Shown here in pieces: positions 9,426 through 34,501 of a DNA stretch of 64,000 bases (the first letter of the stretch is position 1; the number at the start of each line of letters is the position of its first letter). The notes under the pieces are model-generated. The model made no database searches. It saw only the letters and a program-made list of their open reading frames with translations, and was not told the origin of the DNA. The position numbers and the translations under genes were made by a program. The DNA is from Haloarcula marina (lineage in GTDB: Archaea; Halobacteriota; Halobacteria; Halobacteriales; Haloarculaceae): positions 3,224,001 to 3,288,000 of the forward strand of contig NZ_CP100404.1 of the NCBI RefSeq assembly GCF_024218775.1, given 5' to 3'.

Positions 9426-10865
9426 ATGGCGTGTCAGAACTATATCGGCGGCGAGTGGCGCGACTCGACGTCCGGTGAGACGATGCCGAGTCGAAACCCA
9501 GCGGTGCCGTCGGAAGTCGTCGGCGAAGTCCCCGTATCGACGGTAGACGACGCGACGGCGGCCGTCGACGCCGCGGCGGCCGCCCGGGAAGCGTGGGCCG
9601 AGACACCCGGCCCGGAACGCGGTGCGATTCTCCGCGAAACCGGGCGACTGCTCGCCGAGCGACGGGACGCAATCGCCGAGACGCTGGTGTTGGAGGAGGG
9701 GAAGACGTGGTCGGAGTCCACCGGGGAGGTCCAGCGAGCGATAGACATCTTCCACTACTACGCGGCGAAGGCCGCCGACATCGGTGGGACGGTCAAGTCC
9801 AGTAGTTCCCGAGCGACCACCCTCTCGGTGCGAACAGAACCGATCGGTATCGTCTCGGCTATCACGCCGTGGAACTACCCCCTCGGCATCCCGGCGTGGA
9901 AAGTCGCACCGGCGCTGGCGACCGGCAACGTCGTCACACTGAAACCCGCGGAGAACGCCGCGGTCACGGCCACTGCCCTGGTGGAATGCCTCGACGACGC
10001 GGGCCTCCCGGACGGCGTCCTCAACCTCGTGACCGGTCCCGGGGACACGGTCGGTGAGGCGCTCACGACCGACGACCGGGTGGACGCCGTCTCCTTCACC
10101 GGGAGCGAGTCGGTCGGCGACATCGTCTACCGGAACGCCGCGCCCGACCAGAAGCGCGTTCAGTTGGAGATGGGCGGGAAGAACCCCACCGTAGTCACGC
10201 CCGACGCCGACCTCGACGCGGCCGTCGACATCGTCGGGTCCGGCGCGTTCGGCGTCACCGGGCAGGCCTGTACCGCCTGCTCGCGGGCCGTCGTTCACGA
10301 GGCCGTCTACGACGAGTTCCTCGAACGCATCGTCGAGTACGCCGAGTCGCTCTCGCTCGGTCCGGGGATGGACGACCCGGACATGGGACCACAGAACAGC
10401 GACAGCGAACTATCGAGCACCCTCGAGTACATCGCCGTCGGGAGAGACGAAGGCGCGGTCCTCGAAACCGGTGGACGCCGCGCCGAAGACGCCGGTGACG
10501 GCTACTTCGTCGAACCGACCGTGTTCGCCGACGTCGACCCGGCCATGCGCATCGCCCAAGAGGAGATATTCGGACCGGTCCTGTCGGTCATCCCGGTCAG
10601 TAGCTACGAGGAGGCCGTCGCAGTCGCCAACGGCGTGGAGCAGGGACTCTCGGCCAGTATCGTGACACAGAATCTCCGAGAGGCGCACCGCTTCGTGGAC
10701 GACATCGACGCTGGTGTCGCGAAAGTCAACGAGAAGACGACGGGTCTGGAACTACACGTCCCGTTCGGCGGCATGAAAGCCTCCTCCAGCGAGACGTACC
10801 GCGAACAGGGCGACGCCGCCCTCGACTTCTACACCCTCAGCAAGACGGTCTATCTAAATTATTGA
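9426..10865 (+). CDS. xacF: 2-oxoglutarate semialdehyde dehydrogenase, XacF-like
   Basis: This 479-residue aldehyde dehydrogenase would catalyse the last step of oxidative pentose degradation, oxidising 2-oxoglutarate semialdehyde to 2-oxoglutarate with NAD(P). The oxyanion Asn is in TPWNYP (N150), the general base Glu248 is in ELEMGGK-like context (QLEMGGK), and the catalytic Cys282 is in GQACTACSR. The start MACQNYIGGEW is chosen over an upstream ATG because it begins the conserved family N-terminus and lies 26-35 bp after a TATA box. It is divergent from xacE. The assignment relies on family membership plus gene context. Confidence 0.85.
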   Translation: MACQNYIGGEWRDSTSGETMPSRNPAVPSEVVGEVPVSTVDDATAAVDAAAAAREAWAETPGPERGAILRETGRLLAERRDAIAETLVLEEGKTWSESTGEVQRAIDIFHYYAAKAADIGGTVKSSSSRATTLSVRTEPIGIVSAITPWNYPLGIPAWKVAPALATGNVVTLKPAENAAVTATALVECLDDAGLPDGVLNLVTGPGDTVGEALTTDDRVDAVSFTGSESVGDIVYRNAAPDQKRVQLEMGGKNPTVVTPDADLDAAVDIVGSGAFGVTGQACTACSRAVVHEAVYDEFLERIVEYAESLSLGPGMDDPDMGPQNSDSELSSTLEYIAVGRDEGAVLETGGRRAEDAGDGYFVEPTVFADVDPAMRIAQEEIFGPVLSVIPVSSYEEAVAVANGVEQGLSASIVTQNLREAHRFVDDIDAGVAKVNEKTTGLELHVPFGGMKASSSETYREQGDAALDFYTLSKTVYLNY

Positions 10866-11734
10866 CGGTCTCGATGCCACGGGGGGCTTTCCGAATCCGC
10901 CGCTCGGTCCGTACAGTCGTAGCTATCGGCCGCCGAGTCGAACTGGAACTACTGTTCAGCTACCACGGAGAGTCCGCCACAAATCTGAAGCGCTGTTCAT
11001 AATGGATGAACGTCCAAAATAACAAACGTACCCTCGTTACCTCAACCGTGTGTATTGTCGACACACCACGAGAACGCGGCTACTGCCGATATTCGGTACT
11101 TTCAGGAACGGCAACACAGGCGATGAGAACAGGTATTGCCGCGGTTACGACAGGCTCGTTCACCCATTCCGAACGACATTTCAGACATCAGGTATACTTC
11201 GTTTGCGCCGATGAACGACGGCCCGATATAGTCGCAAGCAGTCTCCCCGGCGCGAGTGTTGTCCTTGCACACGGTAGAACACATATCTGCGACTATATCC
11301 GTGTCGTAGAGGATAGTAGCCTCGAATTTGTGATTCCTTTAGCTTTTGGACCCATAAAACCACCTAACTAACCTATATGAATATATTTGCCCTAATTTCT
11401 CGCCATATTTTCCTCTTTTCTTTTCTACAAGTGGATTGCTAAGCATATACCGGTATTTCCTAAGTCTACGTAGGTTTTTGATTGTCTTCCGACGCTACCG
11501 ACAGCTACTGGCCGAACTAGAGACACATCCCGTCGGTAGTCGGCCCACGGTCACAGGGGCTGACCGTCTCCCGGAGGACTGTCTCGTTGCCGCCGACCCT
11601 CGCAGTCGTCTGGAAGGCGAGTGCGGCGTCGTCGCCACGTCGAACCGTTCCGCAACCCATCCCGGCCCGGTATCCTCTCGTTACGTCCCGAATTGCCGGG
11701 AATAACTACGGCACGTCCCGCGCGAGACGTGAAT
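10866..11734. other. Gene-poor, AT-richer interval of 870 bp
   Basis: Nothing in this stretch resembles a known protein or RNA. The central 11.0-11.5 kb part is much more AT-rich than its surroundings. An open frame of 121 codons (11006-11371, plus strand) lacks the acidic composition of haloarchaeal proteins and shows no recognisable motif, so it is not called. A 17-bp inverted repeat lies at 10995-11011. The interval separates the pentose cluster from housekeeping genes and may be a decayed insertion. Confidence 0.5.
10995..11011. repeat. Inverted repeat GTTCAT-N5-ATGAAC
   Basis: Perfect 6-bp arms flank a 5-bp spacer. The symmetry resembles a regulator half-site pair, but no gene follows with a convincing reading frame. 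Confidence 0.4.
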
Positions 11735-17921: not shown

Positions 17922-18689
17922 CTATCGCCAACTGGTCCAGCCACCGTCGACGACCAGCGATTCGCCGGTCACGTAACTCGCCAAGTCGCTCGCGAGGAAG
18001 ACGGCGGCACCGCCGATCTCCTCGGGTTGGCCGTAGCGACCCAACGGGACCGCCTCCTCGAAGGCGGCGGTCTGTTCGGGGTCGGTCCCCGCGTCGCCGC
18101 CGATCATCGTCTCGATGCCGCCCGGGTGAATCGCGTTGACTCGAATGCCGTCGTCGGCGAGTTTGTGGGCGAGCGAGTACGTCAGCGTGGTCAGTCCGCC
18201 CTTCGAGGCGGCGTACGTCGGCCAGTTGCCGTTCCCGAACAGGCCAGCGATGCTCGAGATGTTGATGATGGTCCCGCCGCCGGTCGCCGCGAGGCGCTCG
18301 GCGGCGACCTGACACCCGAAGAACGCGCCGGTGAGGTTGATCTCCATCAACTGATTGTACTCCGTCAGGTCGACGTCCAAGAACTCCTCGGCCCGCCAGA
18401 TACCGGCGTTGTTGACCATCACGTCGAGGCCGCCGAGGTCGGCGGCGGCGTCGACTGCGGCCGCCACGTCATCACGGTCGGTAACGTCGCAGTCGACGAA
18501 CCGGGCGTGCGCGTCCGTCTCCGCTTCGACGAGTTCGTGCGTCGGGTCGCCGCCCTCTTTGGGGTCTTCTCGCACGTCGGCCACGACGACGCCGTCAGCG
18601 CCGTGTGCGGCGAATTCGCGAGCGATTGCGCGCCCGATTCCAGAGCTAGCGCCGGTGACGACTGCGGTCTGACCGTCGAGTAGTGTCAT
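17922..18689 (-). CDS. Short-chain dehydrogenase (SDR family)
   Basis: This 255-residue classical SDR has TGASSGIG at the nucleotide site, NNAGIW at the central strand and catalytic YAASKGG, ending YVTGESLVVDGGW. The start MTLLDGQTAVV is the usual SDR N-terminus, although the frame stays open much further upstream. It has its own promoter region, divergent from the NifU-domain gene. Homologues act on sugars, polyols or 3-oxoacyl compounds, and the substrate is not predictable. Confidence 0.85.
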   Translation of the reverse strand: MTLLDGQTAVVTGASSGIGRAIAREFAAHGADGVVVADVREDPKEGGDPTHELVEAETDAHARFVDCDVTDRDDVAAAVDAAADLGGLDVMVNNAGIWRAEEFLDVDLTEYNQLMEINLTGAFFGCQVAAERLAATGGGTIINISSIAGLFGNGNWPTYAASKGGLTTLTYSLAHKLADDGIRVNAIHPGGIETMIGGDAGTDPEQTAAFEEAVPLGRYGQPEEIGGAAVFLASDLASYVTGESLVVDGGWTSWR

Positions 18690-18834
18690 TTGTGAACACC
18701 GTTCGAACCGACGAGCGGACGTGTCAAATAACCATTCGCTCTCGCGCGCGCGTGCTACACATCGAACGCGACGCACCCGTCCGACCTTGTCAGTCCAAAG
18801 GTCTAAATCTCCCCGGCACGGACCTACAGTTACT

Positions 18835-19200
18835 ATGAGCACGGAGACAGACGACGGGGACGACCTGCGCGAGCGAATTACCAACTTCCTGCGCCGGAAC
18901 TTCCCGCAGATCCAGATGCACGGCGGCAGCGCGGCCATCGAGGAAATCGACCGCGAAGACGGGAGCGTCACCATCCGCCTCGGTGGCGCGTGCTCGGGGT
19001 GTGGCATCTCGCCGATGACCATCCAGGCCATCAAGACGCGCATGACCAAGGAGATTCCCGAAATCAACGAAGTCATCGCGCGAACCGGGATGGACCAGCA
19101 GGAAGGGATGTCCGGCGGCGCGGGCATGAGTCCCTCGTTCCCCGGCGAGTCCCGCGGCGGCGACATCAGCGACGACGAAGGCCCCGAAGCCCCGTTCTGA
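18835..19200 (+). CDS. NifU C-terminal-domain protein (Fe-S cluster scaffold)
   Basis: This 121-residue protein contains a single NifU-like domain. The CSGCGISPMT motif carries the two cysteines that bridge a transferable [4Fe-4S] cluster between subunits. The acidic N-terminus and the Gly/Ser-rich C-terminal tail (PSFPGESRGGD) are haloarchaeal additions. The start at 18835 follows a TATA-like CTAAATC element about 30 bp upstream. The role is assembly or delivery of iron-sulfur clusters in the cytoplasm. It is monocistronic, followed by a T-run. Confidence 0.88.
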   Translation: MSTETDDGDDLRERITNFLRRNFPQIQMHGGSAAIEEIDREDGSVTIRLGGACSGCGISPMTIQAIKTRMTKEIPEINEVIARTGMDQQEGMSGGAGMSPSFPGESRGGDISDDEGPEAPF

Positions 19201-21461: not shown

Positions 21462-22862
21462 TCAGAGCTCGCTTTCGAGGTTCTTCAGTTCGTCGTGGAA
21501 CTGCTGACCGGCCTCGTAGGGGTCCGTCTCGCCGTAGGCGACTTCCTGCATGTAGCCGTAGAACGGTTCGCGGACCTGTCCCCAGCCGATTTTGGCGAGC
21601 GCGCGGCCCGTTTCGAACACGTCCGTGAACGGTTGCCAGTTCTCGTTGGTGATGGTCGATTCGACGTCCTCGTGGACCGGCGTCATGCCGTTCCCTTTGG
21701 CGTCCTCTCCCATCGCGCGCAGCGTGTCCGGTTCGGCGAACGCGGCGGCAATCTGCTTTGCGGCCTCCTTCTGGTCGGAGTGGCTGTTGACCATGACCGG
21801 CTTGACTTCGAGGAAGGTCCCCTGGGACCCGCCCTCGCCGTAGGGCAGGTGGGCGACGCTGGTGTTGTTCTCCAGCAGTTGGCTCGTCGCCTCGCTGTCG
21901 TTGATGTTGTCGCCGGTGGTCCACCCGCGGAGCCACGTCCCGCACTCGATGAAGGCGAACTCGCCGTTGAGGTAGCCGGGGTCGTTGACCTGCCACCCGG
22001 TCCCGAGTTGGTCGGGGTTACCGACCGGGTCGTCGGCGGCGTAGATTTGGTAGTACCAGTTGTCGAACACCTGTCCGAGCTGGTCGGCGTTGATGTTCAG
22101 CGACCACGACTCGCCGTCGGGGACGTACAGTTGGTCGGTGTGCTGGTAGACGTGGGACATCCACTCCTGGAACGCGCGGACGCTGCCGTCCTTGGTACAG
22201 TTGTGGTAGGCCCACAGGTCGTCGTACTCGCTGTTGATCATCCGACCGACTTCCTGGAACTCGGCGGCCGTCTCGGGCACGTCCTGACCGAGTTCTTCGA
22301 GGATGTCGAGGCGGTAGATGAGCGCGCGAGCGTTGCCGTTGTACGGCAGGCCGTAGAGGTTCCCGCGGTAGGTCACCGCGTCGAGAGCGCTCTGGACGAA
22401 ACCGTCGTAGAAGTCCAGGCCCTCGGCGAAGTCGTTGAGCGGTTCGAGGTGCCCGGCCTTCACGTACTCTGTGAGGTGGCTCAGGACCCCTTCGATAGCG
22501 TCTGGGTCACCGGTCCGAGCGCCGGTGAGGTACTTCTGTCGCAGGTCCTCGTAGGAGAACCGACCCATCCGCGGTTCCTGGCCGAGGCGCTCCGTGGCGT
22601 TCTCGATGAACGCCTCGCGCCAGACCGGCGGGGAGTCGTCGTTCGGGAACGCGTAGTTCCAGAACAGTGGGGGTGACCCGCTGCCGCCGTCGCTGCTGCC
22701 ACTGCTTCCGTCGCTTCCGGAACTACCGCCGTCGCCACCCATCTCGTCGGCCGCGCCGCCGTCGCCGCCGCCACAACCGGCGAGACCGGCGGTCGCACCG
22801 ACACCGAGAGCTTTCACGAGTGAGCGTCTGCTGAGTCCGGAAGTACTGCTGTTATCTGCCAT
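21462..22862 (-). CDS. Extracellular sugar-binding lipoprotein of ABC importer
   Basis: This 466-residue SBP family 1 protein has a Tat signal (SRRSLVKALGVGATAGLAGC) that passes directly into a lipobox at Cys, followed by a Gly/Asp/Ser-rich linker to about residue 55. The remainder is the sugar-binding fold (PYNGNARALIYRLDILEELG, AFIECGTWLRGW). The start MADNSST places the Arg pair near residue 13, and the longer frame upstream is rejected. It is first gene of the operon and divergent from the GH4 gene, with a TATA box (AATTATAAATATG, minus strand) 33-46 bp upstream. Confidence 0.88.
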   Translation of the reverse strand: MADNSSTSGLSRRSLVKALGVGATAGLAGCGGGDGGAADEMGGDGGSSGSDGSSGSSDGGSGSPPLFWNYAFPNDDSPPVWREAFIENATERLGQEPRMGRFSYEDLRQKYLTGARTGDPDAIEGVLSHLTEYVKAGHLEPLNDFAEGLDFYDGFVQSALDAVTYRGNLYGLPYNGNARALIYRLDILEELGQDVPETAAEFQEVGRMINSEYDDLWAYHNCTKDGSVRAFQEWMSHVYQHTDQLYVPDGESWSLNINADQLGQVFDNWYYQIYAADDPVGNPDQLGTGWQVNDPGYLNGEFAFIECGTWLRGWTTGDNINDSEATSQLLENNTSVAHLPYGEGGSQGTFLEVKPVMVNSHSDQKEAAKQIAAAFAEPDTLRAMGEDAKGNGMTPVHEDVESTITNENWQPFTDVFETGRALAKIGWGQVREPFYGYMQEVAYGETDPYEAGQQFHDELKNLESEL

Positions 22863-22894
22863 TGGGCAAACCCTAGAATCCACATTGGACCACC

Positions 22895-22908
22895 CATATT
22901 TATAATTT
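22895..22908 (-). promoter_or_regulatory. TATA box of the galactoside importer operon
   Basis: An A/T-only core (AAATTATAAATATG on the minus strand) sits 33-46 bp before the binding-protein ATG, so the leader is at most about 10-20 nt. Confidence 0.5.
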
Positions 22909-22958
22909 TCCCAAAAGACGGTGGACAACCCGTTTGCCGCCGAATCCATCTCACAGTA

Positions 22959-22992: not shown

Positions 22993-24300
22993 ATGCCGAA
23001 AATCGCCTTCATCGGAGCGGGTAGCATGGTGTTCGCTACCAAACTCGTCGGCGACATCCTCTCGTTCGACGAGTTAGAAGACAGCACCATCGCCCTGATG
23101 GACATCGACGAGCACCGACTGGACCAGACGACCAAAATCGCCGAGGCGATGGTCGAAAACGAGGACGTAGACGCGACAATCGAGTCCACGACCGACCGTC
23201 TCGACGCCCTCGACGACGCCGACTACGTCATGAACATGATCAACGTCGGCGGCACCGAACCGTTCGAGAACGAGATTCGCATCCCGGAGGAGTACGGCGT
23301 CGAGCAAGCCATCGGCGACACCATCGGGCCGGGCGGCATCTTCCGCGGCCTGCGAACCATCCCGACGATGCTCGACCTCGCGAGCGACATGGAGGAAGTC
23401 TGTCCCGACGCCCTCCTGTTGAACTACACGAACCCGATGTCCATCCTCTGCCAGACGATGTTCGACGCGACGGACATCGAGACGGTGGGGCTGTGTCACA
23501 GCGTTCCCCACACCGCCGAAGCCATCGAGGACTACGTCGGCGTCCCCGAGGGCGAACTGGAGTACTGGGTCGCGGGCGTCAACCACGTCGCGTGGTTCCT
23601 CGAAGCGAAGTACGACGGCGAGAGCGTCTATCCCGACCTGCGGGAGGCCTACGACGACCCCGAGACGTACGAGCGAGACACCGTTCGCTTCGAGATGATG
23701 CAACACTTCGGCTACTTCCCGACCGAATCCTCCCACCACATGTCCGAGTACGTCCCGTACTTCCGGACCGACGAGGACACCATCGAGGAGATGGCCGGGA
23801 CGGACTACGCCGAGCGGATGCCCACCGCGACGTACCTCGAAGGGTGGCAGGCCCGCTCGGAGGAACGGGACGACCCCGAACTCGGCGTCGACTTGGACGA
23901 GGTCGGTATCGAGCGTTCCGAGGAGTACGCCTCGCGCCTCATCCACTCCATCGAGACGGACACCACGCGGCGCTTCAACCTCAACGTCAGCAACGAGACG
24001 AACGCTATCGAATCCCTGCCGACCGACGCCTGCGTCGAGGTGCCCGTCCTCGTCGACGGCACGGGCCTGCATCCGTGTTCGGTCGGCGAACTCCCGAAGT
24101 CCATCCGCACTTTCCCCCAGCAACACGTCGCCGTCCAGCAACTCGCCGTCGCCGGTGCACTCGAAAACGACCGCGAGAAGATTCATCGCGCCGTCAAGCA
24201 GGACCCCCTCACCGCCGCGCAACTCACCCTGCCCGAGATTCACGAGATGACCGAGGAACTGCTCGACGCGAACGAGGCGTACCTGCCCGAACTGAACTGA
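22993..24300 (+). CDS. Glycoside hydrolase family 4 (alpha-galactosidase/alpha-glucosidase)
   Basis: This 435-residue NAD+- and Mn2+-dependent glycosidase is mechanistically distinct from classical hydrolases. GH4 enzymes oxidise C3 of the sugar, eliminate the aglycone and reduce again. The Rossmann motif GAGS is at residues 8-11, NYTNPM at 144-149, metal-ligand Cys168 in GLCHSV, and His198 in the VNH motif. The Cys-His-Ser version of the 168 motif is typical of alpha-galactosidase and alpha-glucosidase members that act on unphosphorylated sugars. It is cytoplasmic. It is divergent from the importer operon, so it would cleave the imported oligosaccharide. Confidence 0.88.
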   Translation: MPKIAFIGAGSMVFATKLVGDILSFDELEDSTIALMDIDEHRLDQTTKIAEAMVENEDVDATIESTTDRLDALDDADYVMNMINVGGTEPFENEIRIPEEYGVEQAIGDTIGPGGIFRGLRTIPTMLDLASDMEEVCPDALLLNYTNPMSILCQTMFDATDIETVGLCHSVPHTAEAIEDYVGVPEGELEYWVAGVNHVAWFLEAKYDGESVYPDLREAYDDPETYERDTVRFEMMQHFGYFPTESSHHMSEYVPYFRTDEDTIEEMAGTDYAERMPTATYLEGWQARSEERDDPELGVDLDEVGIERSEEYASRLIHSIETDTTRRFNLNVSNETNAIESLPTDACVEVPVLVDGTGLHPCSVGELPKSIRTFPQQHVAVQQLAVAGALENDREKIHRAVKQDPLTAAQLTLPEIHEMTEELLDANEAYLPELN

Positions 24301-24386: not shown

Positions 24387-25568
24387 TTATTCGACGCCGA
24401 TTTCCACGCCGCTCACGTCGTCGAGTCCGGCCAGTGCCGCCACGTCGTCGGTCTCCGGTGGCGCGCGATTGCGCAACGCCTCGCCCGTCTCACCGTCGAA
24501 GACGTGGACCCGGTTCTGCGGGAACTGGACCGTCAGTTCGCGGCCCGATTCGATGACGATGTCCCCCTCGAGCGTCGCGGTGTACTGCTCGCCGCCGATG
24601 TCGAGGTAGACGTAGCTCACGTCCCCGAGCGGTTCGGTCACCTTCACTGTCGGCGAGATGGCGTTGTGGGTGTCCTTCGGGACGGCTTTGATGTCTTCGG
24701 GGCGGATACCCAGCGTGAACCGCGAGCCCTCGCCCTCGATGTCGGCGTACACGTCGTCGTCGAGTTCGTACGCGAACTCGTCGTGGACGAGCGTCGGCGT
24801 CTCGCCCGACGTGTCGAGTTCGACGTCGAAGAAGTTCATCGAGGGCGACCCGATGAACCCGGCGACGAACTGGTTGGCCGGTTCGTGATAGCACTCCAGC
24901 GGCGTCCCGAGTTGCTGGAGTTGCCCGTCGTTGAGGACGGCGATGCGGTCGGACATCGTCATCGCCTCAGTCTGGTCGTGGGTGACGTAGATAGTGGTGA
25001 CCCCGAAGTCGGACTGGAGTTCCTGCAGTTCGGTGCGCATCTGGGTGCGCAGTTTCGCGTCCAAGTTGCTGAGCGGTTCGTCCATCAGGAACACTTCCGG
25101 TTCGCGGACGATGGCCCGCCCCAGCGCGACGCGCTGTTGCTGGCCGCCGGATAGCTCGTCGGGTTTCTTGTCGATGAGGTCGCCGATACCCATCATGTCG
25201 GCGGCGTCTTGGACCCGCTCTGCGATTTCGCTCTTCGGAAGGTCCGTCGTCATCTTCAGCCCGAACGCCATGTTCTCACGGGCCGTCATGTGCGGGTACA
25301 GCGCGTAGCTCTGGAACACCATCGCCATGTTGCGCGACTTCGGTTTCTTCTCGGTCACGTCCTCGCCGTCGAGGACGATGCTCCCCTCGGTGGGGTTCTC
25401 CAGCCCCGCAATCATCCGCAGCGTCGTCGACTTCCCGCATCCCGACGGCCCGACGAGGACGATGAACTCGCCGTCCTCAATCTCTGCATCGAACGAATCC
25501 ACCGCGACGATGTCGCCGCCGTCGTCGTGGAATATCTTTGTGAGGTTCTGTATCTCTAGCTCGCCCAT
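24387..25568 (-). CDS. Sugar ABC transporter ATP-binding protein (MsmX/UgpC type)
   Basis: This 393-residue ATPase has Walker A GPSGCGKST, signature LSGGQQQ, FLMDEPLSNLD and H-loop THDQTEAMTM. A C-terminal TOBE domain reads FTLGIRPEDIKAV and ends with HVFDGETGEALRN. It is a monocistronic gene convergent with the GH4 gene. No permease is adjacent, but the only incomplete importer in the window (19620-22862) lacks an ATPase, so this is its probable motor. Short stretches of DNA are identical to the xac ATPase genes. Two related inverted motifs lie in its upstream region. Confidence 0.88.
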   Translation of the reverse strand: MGELEIQNLTKIFHDDGGDIVAVDSFDAEIEDGEFIVLVGPSGCGKSTTLRMIAGLENPTEGSIVLDGEDVTEKKPKSRNMAMVFQSYALYPHMTARENMAFGLKMTTDLPKSEIAERVQDAADMMGIGDLIDKKPDELSGGQQQRVALGRAIVREPEVFLMDEPLSNLDAKLRTQMRTELQELQSDFGVTTIYVTHDQTEAMTMSDRIAVLNDGQLQQLGTPLECYHEPANQFVAGFIGSPSMNFFDVELDTSGETPTLVHDEFAYELDDDVYADIEGEGSRFTLGIRPEDIKAVPKDTHNAISPTVKVTEPLGDVSYVYLDIGGEQYTATLEGDIVIESGRELTVQFPQNRVHVFDGETGEALRNRAPPETDDVAALAGLDDVSGVEIGVE

Positions 25569-26002: not shown

Positions 26003-27748
26003 ATGCCGACAGTAGAGAGTCCCGAAGGCACAGTCACCGCTACCGTCTCGCTCAGCGGCGCGGACCAGACCCTCGCCGTCGCACTCGCCGACCGGACCGT
26101 CGTCGAACCGTCCACGCTCGGCCTGACTGCGCCGTTCGACCCACCGACCGAAGACGTCGACCTGCCGACCGTCGAGGACTTCGAGCGCTCGGACCGTACC
26201 GTCTCGGAGACGTTCGCGACGACGTACGGGAAGCGCCGCGAACACAGCCACGAGGCGACCGAATCGGTGTTCGTCTGCGACTTTTCGAACGGCGAGACGG
26301 TCGAACTGACGGTGCGTGCGAGCGCCGAGGGCGTCGCCTACCGCTACCGCCTGCCCGAGACGGGGTCGGTGCTGTTGTTCGAGGACCAGACCGAATTTCG
26401 GTTCCCCGACCGGACGACGACGTGGCTCACGCCGTGGGCCGAGAACCACGAGGCCACCTCGCGGCGCGCGCCTCTCTTCACCGCAGAGGGCCGCTACTGC
26501 ACGCCCGGCCTGTTTCAGGTCGCCGACGACGCGTGGGCGCTGGTCACCGAAGCGGGCGTCGACGGGTCGTATCACGCCGCTAGCCTCCGCTCGCGCGACC
26601 AGACGGCCGCCGTCGAGTTCGAACACCCGTGGACGCCGGTGCGGGCGAAAGGCGCCTTCGAGACGCCGTGGCGCGTCGCCGTGGTCGGTGACCTCGCCAC
26701 CGTCGTCGAATCCGACCTCGTCCCGGCGCTGGTCGACGGGCCGCGCTTCGACCCCGAGTGGGTCGACCCGGGCCGGGTCGCGTGGTCGTGGTGGTCCGAG
26801 AGCGACAGTCCGTACGACCCCGACAGACAGCGTGACTACGTCGACTACGCCGCCGAACGCGGCTGGGAATACGTCCTCGTCGACGAGGGGTGGAGTCCCG
26901 ACTGGCTCCCGGAACTGGTCGAGTACGCCGCCGACCGCGGGGTCGAACTGTTCGTCTGGGCCCACTGGACGGACCTCCACGGGGCCGACGAGCGCCGCGA
27001 GAAACTGGCCCGCTGGGCAGAGTGGGGCGTCGCGGGCGTCAAAATAGACTTCATGGACTCGGACGAACAGGGCCGTCTCCAGTTCTACGACGAACTGCTG
27101 GCCGACGCCGCAGAGCGCGAACTGCTCGTGAACTTCCACGGGTCGGTCGTCCCGTCGGGACTCAAGCGGCGGTGGCCCCACGTCATGACCTACGAGGGGG
27201 TGATGGGGGCCGAACACCTCAAGTGGGCGACGCTGACGCCCGAACACAACGTCACGCTCCCCTTTACTCGCAACGCCGTCGGCGCGATGGACTACACGCC
27301 CGTGACGTTCTCGGCGGACTCGCGACACACCAGCGACGCCCACGAACTCGCGCTGTCGGTGGTGTACGAGTCCGGCCTCCAGCACTTCGCCGACAGCGTC
27401 GACGCCTACGCCACCCGTCCCGACGCCGAGTGGTTCCTCGAACGCGTCCCCGCCGCGTGGGACGAGACGGTGTTCCTCCGCGGCCATCCGGGTTCGGAAG
27501 CGACTATCGCCCGCGAACGCGACGGCGAGTGGTTCGTCGGGTGCATCACCGCCGGTGGGGCGCGCACCGTCGAGACGACGCTCTCAGTACTCGACGGCGA
27601 CCGGGAGGCGACGCTGATTCGTGACCCGAGCGGCGCAGACGAGGCTGACGACGACGGCCTCGTCCGCGAGACGGTGACCGTGGGGCCGGAGACGCCGCTG
27701 TCCGTCGACGTACCCGAAAACGGCGGTTTCGCGCTCTACTGTCCCTGA
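26003..27748 (+). CDS. Glycoside hydrolase family 97 (alpha-glucosidase/alpha-galactosidase)
   Basis: This 581-residue GH97 enzyme has an N-terminal beta-sandwich (residues 1-245, VEGVAYRYRLPE-type segments), a TIM barrel starting at RVAWSWWSE, and a C-terminal beta domain. Barrel motifs are YVLVDEGWSPDW, GVKIDFMDSDEQ and the catalytic-loop TYEGVMGAEH. GH97 members split alpha-galactosides or alpha-glucosides, and either inverting or retaining chemistry occurs. No signal peptide is present, so it acts in the cytoplasm on imported sugar. It is convergent with and overlaps (13 bp) the SDR gene at 27736, and it belongs functionally with GH4 and the importer. Confidence 0.85.
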   Translation: MPTVESPEGTVTATVSLSGADQTLAVALADRTVVEPSTLGLTAPFDPPTEDVDLPTVEDFERSDRTVSETFATTYGKRREHSHEATESVFVCDFSNGETVELTVRASAEGVAYRYRLPETGSVLLFEDQTEFRFPDRTTTWLTPWAENHEATSRRAPLFTAEGRYCTPGLFQVADDAWALVTEAGVDGSYHAASLRSRDQTAAVEFEHPWTPVRAKGAFETPWRVAVVGDLATVVESDLVPALVDGPRFDPEWVDPGRVAWSWWSESDSPYDPDRQRDYVDYAAERGWEYVLVDEGWSPDWLPELVEYAADRGVELFVWAHWTDLHGADERREKLARWAEWGVAGVKIDFMDSDEQGRLQFYDELLADAAERELLVNFHGSVVPSGLKRRWPHVMTYEGVMGAEHLKWATLTPEHNVTLPFTRNAVGAMDYTPVTFSADSRHTSDAHELALSVVYESGLQHFADSVDAYATRPDAEWFLERVPAAWDETVFLRGHPGSEATIARERDGEWFVGCITAGGARTVETTLSVLDGDREATLIRDPSGADEADDDGLVRETVTVGPETPLSVDVPENGGFALYCP

Positions 27749-28566
27749 CGAATCGACTCGGCGTACTCCCTGTACAGTTCGTCCTGCATCACCTGCGTCC
27801 GGCCGCCGTCGACGAGGATGCTCTCCCCAGTGACGAACGTCGCGTCGTCGCTGGCGAGGAAGGCGGCCATCCCCGCTACGTCCGCCGGAGTGCCGAGTCG
27901 GCCCGTCGGGTGAATCGCCTTCGTGTACTCGTACTCCTCGTCGCTGTCGAACTCCGCGCGGGTGCGTTCTATCTCGACCCACCCCGGATTGATGGTGTTG
28001 ACCGTGATGCCGTGGGGACCGAGTTCCAGCGCCATCGCCCGCGTCATCCCGTTGATACCCGCCTTTACGGCATTGTAGGGGTACAGCCCCGGCATCGTCA
28101 GGAACGCGTGGTTCGAGGACATGTTCAGGACGGTGCCGCCTTCGGGCATCGCCTCGACGGCGTGTTTGGCACACAGCCAGAACGACCGGAAGTCCGTCTC
28201 GACGACGAACTCCCAATCGGAGAGGGTGGCCTCGCTGGCCGTCGTCTCCGTCTGGACGCCCGCGTTGTTCACCAACACGTCGACGCGGCCGTACTCGTCG
28301 ACGGTGTGGTCGATGAGCGCCTCGATTTCGGCGGGGTCGCGCATGTCCGCCTGCACGAACGTCGCCTCGCCGCCCTCGTCGGTGATTGTGTCGACGACGG
28401 CCTCTCCGGGGTCGCGGGAGCGGCCGGTGACGACCACCGACGCCCCCTCCGCGGCGAACCGGCGAGCGACGCCCGCGCCGATGCCGCGCGTCGACCCGGT
28501 GACGACGACGACGCGCTGTTCGTGTCTGGTCGGGACGGCGTTCGCAGTCGGGTCTGTCGAACTCAT
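27736..28566 (-). CDS. Short-chain dehydrogenase, candidate sugar dehydrogenase
   Basis: This 276-residue classical SDR has TGSTRGIGAG at the nucleotide site, NNAGVQ, catalytic YNAVKAG and the ending FVTGESILVDGGR. An N-terminal extension of about 16 residues (SSTDPTANAVPTRHEQ) precedes the first strand. It sits between galactosidases and a galactonate-dehydratase-like enzyme, where oxidative galactose degradation (De Ley-Doudoroff route) needs a galactose dehydrogenase. That role is inferred from context and is not visible in the sequence. It is divergent from the M24-fold gene across 114 bp. Confidence 0.8.
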   Translation of the reverse strand: MSSTDPTANAVPTRHEQRVVVVTGSTRGIGAGVARRFAAEGASVVVTGRSRDPGEAVVDTITDEGGEATFVQADMRDPAEIEALIDHTVDEYGRVDVLVNNAGVQTETTASEATLSDWEFVVETDFRSFWLCAKHAVEAMPEGGTVLNMSSNHAFLTMPGLYPYNAVKAGINGMTRAMALELGPHGITVNTINPGWVEIERTRAEFDSDEEYEYTKAIHPTGRLGTPADVAGMAAFLASDDATFVTGESILVDGGRTQVMQDELYREYAESIRQGQ

Positions 28567-28680: not shown

Positions 28681-29775
28681 ATGCTCACGACGAGAAAGCG
28701 CACACAACTAGAGACGGTACTCGCAGAGTACGACGCCGACAGCGCGTGGTTCGCCACGCCGCCGGCGTTCGCGTGGCTGACCGGCGGCGGGAACAACGTC
28801 GTCTCGCTTGCGGACGATACCGGAGTTGCCGCGGTCGGCTACGACGGCGAGGACGTCGTCCTCGTCGCCGACCACATCGAGGCCGACCGACTCCGCGAGG
28901 AGGAACTGGCCGTGGACGCCACCGTCCGCGAGTTCGACTGGTACGACGAGACGCTGGAATCGGCCGTCGCGGAACTGGCGACCGGGGACGCCGTCGCGGA
29001 CTTCGACCTCCCCGGCGCGGAGACGGTCCGCGTGCCGACCCGGACGTTCCCGCTCACCGACTCCGAACGGGAACGGTACCGCGACCTCTCTCGAGAGACG
29101 ACGGAAGTGGTCGAGCGCGTCGCTCGCGACGTGACGCCGGTGATGACCGAGCGCGGGGCCGCCGCCGACCTCGCACACGGCCTGCGCCAGCGGAAGATAG
29201 ACCCGCTTGTGGTACTGGTCGGCGGGGCCGACCGGAGCCAGCGCTATCGGCACTTCACGCCCGGCGACGCGACGTTAGACGAGTACGCCACCCTCACCGT
29301 CGTCGGGCGGCGCGGCGGCTTGCACGCCTGCGTGACCCGGACGGTGGCCTTCGAGACGCCCGAGTGGCTTCCCGACCGCTTCGCGGCGACCCAGCGCGTC
29401 GCGGCGACGGCGCTCCGGGCGACCCAGCGTGTCGGCCGCGACGGTGGGACCGCGGGCGACGTGTTCGACGCGATTCGGGACGCCTACGCCGCCGTCGGCT
29501 ACCCAGAGGAGTGGCACGAACACCACCAGGGCGGGATGACGGGGTACGGCGGCCGCGAGTGGTTCGCCCGACCCGACGGCGAGGACGCCGTGACGCTCGG
29601 GTCGGCCTACGCGTGGAACCCCACGATTCAGGGGACGAAAGTCGAGGACACGGCGCTGGTCACCGAAGCGGACGTTGAGTTGCTGACGGTGACCGGCGAG
29701 TGGCCGACGACGAGCGTCGACCCGGTCGGCGACGGCGCGGCCCTCGAACTGCCTGCCGTGATGAGCCGAGACTAA
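28681..29775 (+). CDS. M24-fold (creatinase/aminopeptidase P-like) protein lacking most metal ligands
   Basis: This 364-residue protein has the two-domain architecture of aminopeptidase P/creatinase: an N-terminal creatinase-like domain (TTRKRTQLETVLAEYDAD, AWLTGGGNN) and a C-terminal pita-bread domain. The metal-binding positions are largely changed. The DxG...D region reads VGRRGGLHACVTRT with no Asp, and the TIEPG Glu is replaced in AWNPTIQG. The His (HHQGGMTGYG) and last Glu (KVEDTALV) remain. It is unlikely to be a dinuclear metallopeptidase. Its placement beside galactonate dehydratase suggests a sugar-related, possibly hydrolytic or lyase role. The function is unknown. Confidence 0.75.
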   Translation: MLTTRKRTQLETVLAEYDADSAWFATPPAFAWLTGGGNNVVSLADDTGVAAVGYDGEDVVLVADHIEADRLREEELAVDATVREFDWYDETLESAVAELATGDAVADFDLPGAETVRVPTRTFPLTDSERERYRDLSRETTEVVERVARDVTPVMTERGAAADLAHGLRQRKIDPLVVLVGGADRSQRYRHFTPGDATLDEYATLTVVGRRGGLHACVTRTVAFETPEWLPDRFAATQRVAATALRATQRVGRDGGTAGDVFDAIRDAYAAVGYPEEWHEHHQGGMTGYGGREWFARPDGEDAVTLGSAYAWNPTIQGTKVEDTALVTEADVELLTVTGEWPTTSVDPVGDGAALELPAVMSRD

Positions 29776-29791: not shown

Positions 29792-30982
29792 TTACCACTC
29801 GGCGACGCTGCCGTCCTCGTGACGCCACACGGGGTTGTGCCAGTTGACCGTCTTCTCGGACTGTTCGCGGACGTACGCCTCGTTGATTTCGATGCCCAGT
29901 CCGGGGTCGTCCGGAATCTGGACGTAGCCGTCATCGTACTCGAACACCGACGGGTCCGCGAGGTAGTCGAGCACGTCCGTCGTCTCGTTGTAGTGGATGT
30001 TGAGGCTCTGCTCTTGAATCAGCGCGTTCGGCGAACAGGCGTCGACCTGCACGCAGGAGGCCAGCGCCACCGGGCCAAGCGGACAGTGTGGAGCGAGCGC
30101 CACGTCGTAGGCCTCGGCCATCGACGCGATTTTCTTGACCTCGGTGATGCCCCCGGCGTGTGAGAGGTCCGGTTGGATGACGTCGACGGCCCCGTCCGCG
30201 AAAATCTCCTTGTAGTCCCACCGCGAGAACATCCGTTCGCCCGTCGCGATGGGGATGGTGGTGTGGGCGGCGATGTCCGGCAGGGCCTCGTTGTGTTCGG
30301 GGAGGACCGGTTCCTCGATGAACATCGGTTCGTGCGGCTCCAAGGCCTTCGCCAGCCGTTTCGCCATCGGCTTCGTGACTCGGCCGTGGAAGTCGACGCC
30401 GATGTCGACTTCGTCGCCGACGGCCTCGCGCACCTCGCGCAGGCGGTTCGCGGCCGCCTCGACGGCCGCCGGGTTGTCCACCCGTTCGATTTCGGCGGTG
30501 GCGTTCATCTTCAGCGCCGAGAACCCGGCGTCGACCTTCTGTTCGGCTTGCTCGGCCACCTCGGAGGGGCGGTCGCCGCCGATCCACTGATACACGCGGA
30601 TGCGATTGCGGGCGGCCCCGCCGAGGAGTTGGTGGACCGGCGCGCCCAACTGCTTGCCCTTGATGTCCCAGAGCGCCTGGTCGATGCCCGCGATGGCGGA
30701 CATGAGCACCGGGCCGCCGCGGTAGAAGCCGCCGCGGTACATCGTCTGCCAGTGGTCCTCGATGTCCTCGGGGTTCTCGCCGAGGAGGTAGTTCTCCAGC
30801 AGTTCCTCAACGGCGGCCCGGACGGTGTGGGCGCGCCCCTCGACGACGGGTTCGCCCCACCCGACGGTGCCGTCGGCCGTCTCGACGCGGAGGAGGAGCC
30901 ATCTGGGCGGCACCTCGAACAGTTCGTAGTCGACGATTCGGTTCCTCGCGCTGCTGTCGGATTGGGATGTGTTCGAACTCAT
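29792..30982 (-). CDS. Galactonate dehydratase-like enzyme (enolase superfamily)
   Basis: This 396-residue mandelate racemase/muconate lactonizing family member is of the D-galactonate dehydratase type. The N-terminal cap domain is followed by a barrel with metal ligands in VDFHGR, MFIEEPV and IATGERM, and the catalytic His in LAPHCPLGP. The product would be 2-keto-3-deoxy-galactonate. An acidic Ser-rich N-terminal extension precedes RIVDYELFEV. It is divergent from the IclR regulator, and the shared 222-bp region carries a copy of the 19-bp operator motif. Other acid-sugar substrates are possible, but the galactosidase neighbours favour galactonate. Confidence 0.82.
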   Translation of the reverse strand: MSSNTSQSDSSARNRIVDYELFEVPPRWLLLRVETADGTVGWGEPVVEGRAHTVRAAVEELLENYLLGENPEDIEDHWQTMYRGGFYRGGPVLMSAIAGIDQALWDIKGKQLGAPVHQLLGGAARNRIRVYQWIGGDRPSEVAEQAEQKVDAGFSALKMNATAEIERVDNPAAVEAAANRLREVREAVGDEVDIGVDFHGRVTKPMAKRLAKALEPHEPMFIEEPVLPEHNEALPDIAAHTTIPIATGERMFSRWDYKEIFADGAVDVIQPDLSHAGGITEVKKIASMAEAYDVALAPHCPLGPVALASCVQVDACSPNALIQEQSLNIHYNETTDVLDYLADPSVFEYDDGYVQIPDDPGLGIEINEAYVREQSEKTVNWHNPVWRHEDGSVAEW

Positions 30983-31173: not shown

Positions 31174-31204
31174 ACTTTTGTGCCTCCGGCCGAAATCACG
31201 GTGC

Positions 31205-31963
31205 ATGAACGACGGCCCGCGGGTCAAGACGACCCAAACGAGCTTTCGCATCATCGAGGCGGTGCGGGACAACCGCGGCGCTGGCGTGAGCGAACTCGCC
31301 CGGACGGTCGACCTCTCGAAGTCCGCCGTCCACAAGCACGTCCAGACGCTGACCGAAATCGGCTACCTCGTCCGCGAGGACGACGCGTACTACCTGAGTA
31401 ACCGGTTTCTCAGCCTCGGCAACCGCGCCCGCGAACGACTCCCGCTGGGCCCGGCCAGCAACGTCGTCAACGACCTCGCCGAGACGACCGGCCACGTCAC
31501 GAACTTCATGGCTCACGAGAACGGCCGCGGCGTCTACGCGCTCCGCGTCGAACCCGAGGGCGTCGACCTCGGCGATATCGTCACCGAGGGGGACGTCGCA
31601 CCGCTGCACGCCACCGCCGGAGGGAAGGCGATTCTCGCCTTCTTCTCGAAGGAGAAACGGACCGCTATCCTCGACAGCGTCGGCCTCCCCGCGCACACGG
31701 AGAAGACCATCACCGACCGCCGGGAACTCGAACGGGAACTGCGCTCCATCCGCGACCAGCGCGTGGCCTTCGACCGCGAGGAGTTCATGACGGGCCACCA
31801 GTGTGTCGCCTCGCCCGTCGTCGACCGCAGCGGCGAACCAATCGCCGCCGTCAGCGTCACCGGCAACATCCAGCACATGTCCGGCAAGCGCCTCGAAGAG
31901 GACGTGACCGGCCTCGTCACCAGCGCCGCAAAATCCATCGAGAACGAACTCCTCTCACAGTAG
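31205..31963 (+). CDS. IclR-family transcriptional regulator
   Basis: This 252-residue regulator has an N-terminal winged helix-turn-helix (VSELARTVDLSKSAVHKHVQTL, then the wing YLVREDDAYYL) and a C-terminal IclR effector-binding domain (TTGHVTNFMAHENG, HATAGGKAILAFFSKE, ASPVVDRSGEPIAAVSVTG). The start at 31205 is preferred. An in-frame ATG at 31163 lies inside the operator motif and would add a Cys/Arg-rich extension. It is divergent from the galactonate-dehydratase-like gene. Its probable targets are itself, the dehydratase and other galactoside genes, responding to a pathway sugar acid. Confidence 0.88.
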   Translation: MNDGPRVKTTQTSFRIIEAVRDNRGAGVSELARTVDLSKSAVHKHVQTLTEIGYLVREDDAYYLSNRFLSLGNRARERLPLGPASNVVNDLAETTGHVTNFMAHENGRGVYALRVEPEGVDLGDIVTEGDVAPLHATAGGKAILAFFSKEKRTAILDSVGLPAHTEKTITDRRELERELRSIRDQRVAFDREEFMTGHQCVASPVVDRSGEPIAAVSVTGNIQHMSGKRLEEDVTGLVTSAAKSIENELLSQ

Positions 31964-32512: not shown

Positions 32513-34501
32513 TTATATAGCTTCGCGCACGTCTTCGACCGCGGCTTCCACGACAGCCACGTCGAACGCGTCGACGGTGTCGCCGCCGACGAGGAACGAC
32601 GCGTCCCCGGGCACGTCGAGCGACACCGGTTCGCTCGTGAAGTTCGTGACCCACGTGTAGCCGTCTCGATGTGCCAGGCGCACGCCGTCGGGAAGCGGGT
32701 CGGCGTGGTCGACGCCCGCCGCGCCGAGCAGGTCCGCGACGAGTGCGTCCGCGAGGCCCTCGCCGGGCCAACAGCCGACGGTGGTGACGCTCCCCTCGCC
32801 GACGCGGTTGTGCGCGACGGCGGGTTCCTCGGCGGCCTCGCCGGAGCGGTAGCGCCCGCGCGTCTCGGCCGCGTCCGGGTCGAGCCATCCGGCCCACGTC
32901 TGGTAATCGTACGTCTCGCCGTCGTAGCCGACGCGGGTGTCGAACTGCGCGGGAAGGCTCTCGTGGCGACTCACGCGGACCCCCGCGAGGTCGGCGAGGG
33001 GGCCGGGCGCGAGCGTCTCGTGCAGTTGGTTATACGGGTCCTTCTCGCCGGTGCGCGCGCCCAGCAGGAGGTGCCCGCCCGACTCGACGTAGTCGGTGAG
33101 ACGGCCCGCGAGGGCCTCGCCCGCGAGATACAGCGTCGGCGCGACGACGGCGGCGTAGCCGTCGAGGTCGGCAGACGGCGGGACCACGTCGACCTGCACG
33201 CCCCGTTCGCGGAGCGCGTCGTAGTAGGCCCGCAGGTGCGACCAGTAGTGCCAGTCCGGAGAGTGAGGCTGAATATCCGTCGCCCACAGGCTCTCGTAGT
33301 CGTGGAGGAGGGCGACGGGCGCGTCCACCGGGTCGAGGTCGAACAGTTCCGGGGCGGTGGCGGCGGCGTCGCGGTACCCCTTGTCGGGACTGCCGTCCTG
33401 CTTGCGGAGGCCCGCGTGGTACTGCTCTTGCCCTTGGCGACAGCGCCGCCAGCGGAAGTAGAGGACGGCGTCCGCGCCGTGAGCGACGGCGTGGTGCGCC
33501 CACAACCGCATCGCCCCGTCGCCGGGTTGGGGCGCGTGGGGCGGCCAGTTCACGTCGCCGGGTTGCTGTTCGAGCACCCAGAACGGCGTCTCCGGCCCGC
33601 GGTAGATGTCGTGGTTCAGGCCGATTTCGTCCGGGTCGCCCGCCCGCAGTTCGTCCGTCGTCGGGTCGCCGGGTTGCCGGTCTTGGACGAATCCCGTGGG
33701 GTAGGAGTCCCATCCGAGAAAGTCGAGGTCGTCGGCCAGCGAGTAGGCGTCCAGCGTCGGGAAATCGCCCATGAAGTTGTGGGTGACGAACCACTCGTCG
33801 TTGGCCGCCCGAATCAGGTCGGCGTGCAGGCGGTTGTACTCGACGACGCTGTCGTTCGCGAAGCGGTAGTAGTCCAGCAGGCGCGAGGGGTGATGTTCGG
33901 CTGGCGTCGGTCCAGGCAGGTCGACTGCCTCGAAGTCTGGGTACTGCTGGCTCCAGAAGGTGTTGCCCCACGCCTCGTTCAGCGCGTCCACGTCGCCGTA
34001 CTTGGCTTCCAACCACTCGCGGAACGCCGCCGCGCAGTCGTCACAGTAACACCGCACCGTGCGGTGACAGCCGTACTCGTTGTCGGCCTGCCACCCGGCG
34101 ACGTGCGGATTGTCGGCGTAGCGCTCCGTGACCGTGCGGACGATGCGTTTGGTCTCCTCCCGGTACGTCGGCGAGTTGAAACACGTGAACCGGCGGCTCC
34201 CCCATTCGCGGGGCGTGCCGTCGGCGTCGGCCTGCCGCACGTTGGGGTGCTCGTCGACCAGCCACTTCGGCGGCGTCGCCGTCGGCGTACACAACACCGC
34301 CTGCATGCCGTGGTCGCCGACGAGTTCGATGGCCTCGTCGAGCCAGTCGAAGTCGAATTCGCCGCGTTCGGGTTCGATGCGCGCCCACGAGAACTCCGCC
34401 ATGCGGACGTACTCCAGTCCCGCGTCGGCCATCTGGGCCACGTCCGTCTCCCAGCGCTCGCTGGGCCAGTGCTCGGGGAAGTAGCAGACTCCGAGTGTCA
34501 T
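32513..34501 (-). CDS. bgaH: Beta-galactosidase, glycoside hydrolase family 42
   Basis: This 662-residue GH42 enzyme hydrolyses terminal beta-galactosides. The catalytic barrel starts MTLGVCYFPEHW. The acid/base is Glu142 in ADNEYG, and the nucleophile region is FWVLEQQPGDVNW. The structural zinc site is complete (Cys107, Cys151, Cys153, Cys156). A trimerisation domain (GYAAVVAPTLYLAG) and a small C-terminal beta domain follow. No signal peptide is present, so it is cytoplasmic and salt-adapted. The size and family match the known haloarchaeal bgaH enzymes. A TATA-like CGTATATCG lies 22-30 bp upstream of the ATG. Confidence 0.9.
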   Translation of the reverse strand: MTLGVCYFPEHWPSERWETDVAQMADAGLEYVRMAEFSWARIEPERGEFDFDWLDEAIELVGDHGMQAVLCTPTATPPKWLVDEHPNVRQADADGTPREWGSRRFTCFNSPTYREETKRIVRTVTERYADNPHVAGWQADNEYGCHRTVRCYCDDCAAAFREWLEAKYGDVDALNEAWGNTFWSQQYPDFEAVDLPGPTPAEHHPSRLLDYYRFANDSVVEYNRLHADLIRAANDEWFVTHNFMGDFPTLDAYSLADDLDFLGWDSYPTGFVQDRQPGDPTTDELRAGDPDEIGLNHDIYRGPETPFWVLEQQPGDVNWPPHAPQPGDGAMRLWAHHAVAHGADAVLYFRWRRCRQGQEQYHAGLRKQDGSPDKGYRDAAATAPELFDLDPVDAPVALLHDYESLWATDIQPHSPDWHYWSHLRAYYDALRERGVQVDVVPPSADLDGYAAVVAPTLYLAGEALAGRLTDYVESGGHLLLGARTGEKDPYNQLHETLAPGPLADLAGVRVSRHESLPAQFDTRVGYDGETYDYQTWAGWLDPDAAETRGRYRSGEAAEEPAVAHNRVGEGSVTTVGCWPGEGLADALVADLLGAAGVDHADPLPDGVRLAHRDGYTWVTNFTSEPVSLDVPGDASFLVGGDTVDAFDVAVVEAAVEDVREAI

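Follow-up and report, generated by a model that had tools for sequence, protein, structure and literature searches.

A metal-less M24-fold protein of haloarchaeal and bacterial sugar operons and its possible role as an aldose 1-epimerase

The question raised by this locus is what a protein with the fold of a metallopeptidase does among genes for sugar breakdown when its metal center is missing. The protein is encoded at 28681-29775 (+) in the window, by which we mean the whole stretch of 64,000 nucleotides that was analyzed, from a host genome judged by its relatives to be haloarchaeal. A preliminary description had assigned it to the M24 fold and suggested a galactonolactonase or sugar-acid activity belonging to this locus. 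We compared the locus, the pocket of the protein and the settings of its relatives, and weighed the activities that could account for all of them.

The galactoside locus

The open reading frame at 28681-29775 was confirmed and encodes a protein of 364 amino acids. The two neighbors named in the preliminary description, a dehydrogenase and a galactonate dehydratase, were both recovered with profile scores above cut-off. An SDR dehydrogenase of the glucose 1-dehydrogenase subfamily (27736-28566, -; NF005559, 238 bits, cut-off 215) is divergent from the M24-like gene, with the two starts 114 bp apart. The gene for D-galactonate dehydratase, DgoD (29792-30982, -; NF010624, 678 bits, cut-off 311), is convergent with it and lies 16 bp past its stop codon. 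Further out on that side are an IclR-family regulator (31196-31963, +, start approximate; IclR_C, E = 1.3e-32) and a GH42 beta-galactosidase (32513-34501, -; PF02449, E = 1.5e-148).

On the other side of the M24-like gene there are a GH97 alpha-galactosidase-like enzyme (26003-27748, +; NF053844, 256 bits, under the cut-off of that model) and a GH4 alpha-galactosidase (22993-24300, +; NF011657, 540.7 bits). A sugar ABC transporter substrate-binding protein (21462-22949, -; PF13416, E = 1.5e-21) has a presumed partner in an ABC transporter ATPase (24387-25568, -), which was recognized by reading its translation. Taken together, the locus reads as one for galactoside use via the De Ley-Doudoroff route. 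Scans for promoters and terminators found nothing, as expected for an archaeon. Elsewhere in the window, the second half of the open reading frame at 17922-19166 (-) contains an SDR domain, and the approximately 165 residues ahead of it have no Pfam match; the true start of this frame is probably internal.

Fold, metal ligands and pocket

Assignment to the M24 fold stood up in both sequence and structure comparisons. The product has a weak match to Peptidase_M24 (Pfam PF00557, E = 3.7e-8), and its AlphaFold2 model (mean pLDDT 84) matches prolidases, aminopeptidase P, creatinase and ectoine hydrolase (VIA Z 22-26), indicating a pita-bread fold; Spt16 is also among the fold matches. The catalytic domain (approximately residues 120-364) superposes at 2.0-2.6 Å in most comparisons, and the N-terminal domain is placed with little certainty. 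The best matches in sequence and structure are prolidase and aminopeptidase P (MEROPS M24B, PF00557; 1pv9), which have the pita-bread fold and the N-terminal creatinase-type domain in common with the M24-like protein. It differs from them in having lost four of the five metal ligands, in its other conserved pocket and in its association with sugar operons. Creatinase (1chm) and the ectoine hydrolase EutD/DoeA (6yo9, 6twk) use the M24 fold for chemistry other than peptide cleavage and match the model at Z 22-23. The fold of the M24-like protein and its missing ligands would be compatible with an enzyme of this type, but the M24-like locus has no nitrogen compound pathway nearby, and no creatinase or EutD entries were among the sequence matches of the protein.

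We mapped the ligand positions by profile alignment to the prolidase of Pyrococcus furiosus (1pv9), whose metal ligands we take to be D209, D220, H284, E313 and E327; the numbering of D209, D220 and H284 was checked. The preliminary description had both Asp ligands absent and one Glu replaced, and the alignment agrees: D209 corresponds to T206 (codon at 29296-29298, +), D220 to C217 (29329-29331, +; profile and family alignment) and E313 to N313 (29617-29619, +). T206 was assigned from its distance to the D220 position, which is fixed at 11 residues; in the profile itself, D209 falls within a 1- to 2-residue insertion. The description had also counted a His and the last Glu as retained. The Glu is indeed present, with E327 corresponding to E322 (29644-29646, +), the sole ligand kept, but the ligand His is lost. 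H284 corresponds to G285, the last residue of the motif H281-H282-Q283-G284-G285 (29521-29535, +), and the first His of this motif, H281, aligns with H280 of the P. furiosus enzyme, which is not a ligand.

These losses are family-wide. Among 87 aligned members, none of which keeps the D-D-H-E-E set, position 285 is Gly in all 87, position 217 is never Asp and position 313 is Asn in 83. The view that the protein is not a metallopeptidase was supported by these losses, and the metal-less pocket is conserved throughout the family. E322 and G284 are present in 87/87 members, Q283 in 84, H282 in 83 and H191 (29251-29253, +; equivalent to prolidase H192 in the profile alignment) in 85. In an alignment of 46 sequences, W32, R70, W87, E157, R185, H191, G213, R220, G284, G285 and E322 are invariant, and R190, H282, Q283, R292, N313, K320 and T324 nearly so. 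Judged from these alignments, the metal site is replaced by a different conserved pocket rather than decayed. Decay or a pseudogene origin was ruled out on the ground that the pocket persists at about 30% identity and across domains. Members from galactose, xylose, galacturonate, sulfoquinovose-like and archaeal loci have identical pocket residues, which argues that the chemistry is independent of which sugar is used.

A few individual copies depart from the usual gene structure or pocket. Two copies of the M24-like gene, one from Haladaptatus salinisoli and one from a Lachnospiraceae genome (L083, approximately 10001-11079; L010, approximately 1241-2313), are each divided between two frames and are either pseudogenes or sequencing errors. 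At another locus (L122, 8906-10930), the M24-like domain shares its reading frame with a prephenate dehydratase-like sequence, giving 675 amino acids, apparently by fusion or as a sequencing effect. One locus (L154, 9152-10276 and 14153-14596) has a gene of the RbsD mutarotase family (PF05025), and the M24-like protein there is without the pocket motifs, with HFVGG for HHQGG and HLAT for WNPT. This pairing of RbsD with pocket loss is suggestive, but as a single case it proves nothing.

Operon settings and distribution of the family

Orthologues with 50% identity to the M24-like protein exist, and the family was found in 38 of 53 sampled haloarchaeal genomes and in 53 of 398 Bacillota-type genomes. 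Members also occur on plasmids of Thermus, Deinococcus, Pantoea and cyanobacteria. The family had no match in phages, and a phage origin was set aside for that reason. The tree places the window copy together with two plasmid copies that come from arabinofuranosidase loci (99/92), and the next join adds three more copies (96/94); all of these have carbohydrate genes nearby. The family is represented twice in the host genome; the other copy, at C1:1981354-1982415 (-) (L055, 9349-10416), is in another sugar locus, downstream of TIM-barrel isomerase-like and Gfo/Idh genes and upstream of four GH13 alpha-glucosidase genes.

Approximately 38 of 45 bacterial loci contain sugar genes, by our own count, which was made for the M24-like gene alone. 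The proposed link to sugar catabolism was borne out in xylose, galactose, galacturonate, sulfoquinovose-like, arabinoside and galactoside operons. In Thermus the order is xylF-permease-ATPase-ROK-xylA-xylB-M24-Gfo/Idh-SDR, and in Pantoea it is MFS-GMC-M24-SDR. In five Bacillota genomes the M24-like gene is less than 6 kb from a galactokinase gene, in orders that include galK-galE-galT-M24, galT-galK-galE-M24-ROK and galT-galK-galE-M24; three galactose operons end in the M24-like gene (L125, L141, L146) and two are close variants (L139, L144). In classical gal operons, the slot taken here by the M24-like gene is occupied by galM. Loci with TRAP transporters and galacturonate genes combine the M24-like gene with tagaturonate reductase, altronate/galactarate dehydratase and an IolB/KduI protein. 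The Lachnospiraceae loci have zinc dehydrogenases, SDR, a ribose-type ABC transporter and ROK, and haloarchaeal loci have arabinofuranosidase, a sugar ABC transporter or Gfo6 xylose dehydrogenase. In loci with ABC transporters, the M24-like gene adjoins one whose product resembles sulfoquinovose isomerase (327 bits, below the cut-off of 700). These settings support a family tied to sugar catabolism with a range far wider than one locus.

Two arrangements bring in other genes. In one ABC locus of Bacillota (L131, L133, L151, L155, L157), the sulfoquinovose-isomerase-like protein and the M24-like protein are accompanied by glycerol kinase and GlpABC, and this looks like an uncharacterized sugar route. 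Many haloarchaeal chromosomal copies are outside sugar loci (L062, L063, L073, L074), and are flanked in a conserved order by a heme A synthase-like gene (COX15/CtaA) and by one for malic enzyme with a fused phosphotransacetylase-like domain. This setting has no obvious sugar link and is not informative.

The distribution of GalM (PF01263) is complementary to that of the family. No GalM was detected in any of 54 archaeal genomes tested (53 haloarchaeal, host genome included). Among Bacillota with galactokinase, GalM is present in 7 of 20 genomes that have the family compared to 74 of 98 without it (Fisher one-sided p = 0.0007, with kinship ignored); over all 398 genomes, with no galactokinase condition, the anticorrelation is weak (p = 0.055). 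GalM is less than 6 kb from galK in five genomes, and these are distinct from the five with the family gene there. It was never found within 10 kb of a family gene, including the five galK-linked loci, where the M24-like gene is in the GalM slot. Two observations weigh against a mutarotase role: RbsD/FucU (PF05025), another mutarotase family, is encoded elsewhere in four of the five gal-linked genomes, and a distant homologue of GalM lies about 100 kb from the locus in one.

A possible mutarotase and the alternatives to it

The oxidative, isomerase and Leloir routes share only the step at the free aldose, that is, at the anomeric carbon, and a mutarotase therefore fits them best. That the M24-like protein acts on sugars without a metal, and is not a peptidase, appears probable to us. 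More tentatively, we infer that it may well be a metal-independent aldose 1-epimerase (mutarotase) acting on free monosaccharides. With slightly more reserve, this large family as a whole could be a class of metal-free, peptidase-fold aldose 1-epimerases that replaces GalM in haloarchaea, Thermus, part of the Bacillota and many sugar operons. GalM-type aldose 1-epimerase would have the same role, occupies the same operon slot after galT-galK-galE and has a complementary distribution, but its fold and sequence are unrelated, and the M24-like protein had no PF01263 match in a Pfam scan.

In the window, each galactosidase (GH4, GH97, GH42) would set free galactose with a given anomeric configuration. 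By opening the hemiacetal ring and closing it again, the M24-like protein would produce the anomer oxidized by the SDR dehydrogenase, and galactonate dehydratase would act next, in the De Ley-Doudoroff manner. The conservation and fold positions of the pocket residues suggest possible roles in this reaction: E322 as general base, H191 and/or H282 as acid, acting on the ring oxygen and the anomeric hydroxyl, R185, R220, R292, N313 and K320 in binding hydroxyls, and Trp residues in stacking on the sugar ring. With several invariant Arg and Lys residues, a carboxylate ligand could equally be bound. At the temperature of Thermus habitats spontaneous mutarotation is fast, and the need for a mutarotase would be weaker there. 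The many haloarchaeal copies outside sugar loci also count against this reading.

Mutarotases are a recognized need in sulfoquinovose pathways, and non-orthologous mutarotases replace one another in operons, an example being sulfoquinovose use, with YihR and the putative SqvB (PMC9594981). RbsD/FucU (PF05025), RhaM and the putative SqvB (PMC9594981) are precedents for unrelated families in the mutarotase slot; they differ from the M24-like protein in having other folds and smaller proteins. A literature search found no mutarotase or sugar role for any M24 family and no published function for this one. The M24-like gene is not mentioned in the available part of a survey of haloarchaeal catabolism.

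The alternative closest to the preliminary description is a metal-free lactonase that hydrolyzes the aldono-lactone made by the neighboring dehydrogenase, a counterpart in function of SMP-30/gluconolactonase (PF08450). A sugar dehydrogenase often adjoins the M24-like gene (SDR, Gfo/Idh, GMC or Zn-dependent), hydrolysis of rings and amides is known for the fold (creatinase, ectoine hydrolase), and no SMP-30 lactonase gene, or other lactonase gene, was found in the window. However, separate SMP-30/gluconolactonase genes are present near some haloarchaeal copies, and the host genome has one elsewhere. SMP-30 itself is a metal-dependent beta-propeller, and the M24-like protein had no PF08450 match in the Pfam scan. 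Members of the family with the same pocket are encoded in galT-galK-galE and xylA-xylB operons, in which no lactone is formed, and this argues against a lactonase. We dropped lactone hydrolysis as the shared function of the family on these grounds, the locus-specific role first suggested was not supported, and we consider a lactonase unlikely. Somewhat easier to accommodate, but still rather unlikely, is a different reaction on a free sugar or sugar acid, such as C2 or C3 epimerization or isomerization, the conversion of a keto-sugar or a repair step on a sugar by-product. Its appeal lies in the frequent Gfo/Idh, SDR and TIM-barrel isomerase neighbors and in the several Arg and Lys residues of the pocket. 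The xylose isomerase, Leloir and galacturonate routes, however, have no known missing step of that kind, and a single invariant pocket for many sugars favors the anomeric carbon that they share.

The protein might instead be a non-catalytic sugar-binding pseudoenzyme, perhaps modulating the adjacent ROK, IclR or LacI regulators; ROK regulators are frequent neighbors (22 of 48 loci in cluster 1), and the fold is known to include pseudoenzymes such as Spt16. We regard this as quite doubtful, given that some copies have no adjacent regulator and that His, Glu and Arg are conserved in the old active-site pocket, which suggests catalysis. An ordinary M24 peptidase (prolidase or aminopeptidase P) with an unusual metal site would explain the fold and the weak Pfam match, but it is highly improbable in a mostly sugar-catabolic context, and it was rejected because four of the five ligands are absent throughout the family.

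If the aldose 1-epimerase reading is correct, the annotation of these proteins as M24 metallopeptidases would be corrected; hundreds of genomes probably carry the gene under that name. It would also fill a missing anomer-conversion step in the sugar catabolism of haloarchaea and Thermus, and it would bring a further fold into the small group of unrelated mutarotases. Should the reaction prove to be a different one, the family still has a defined pocket (E322, H191, H282, R185, R220, N313 and K320) and a defined set of operons.
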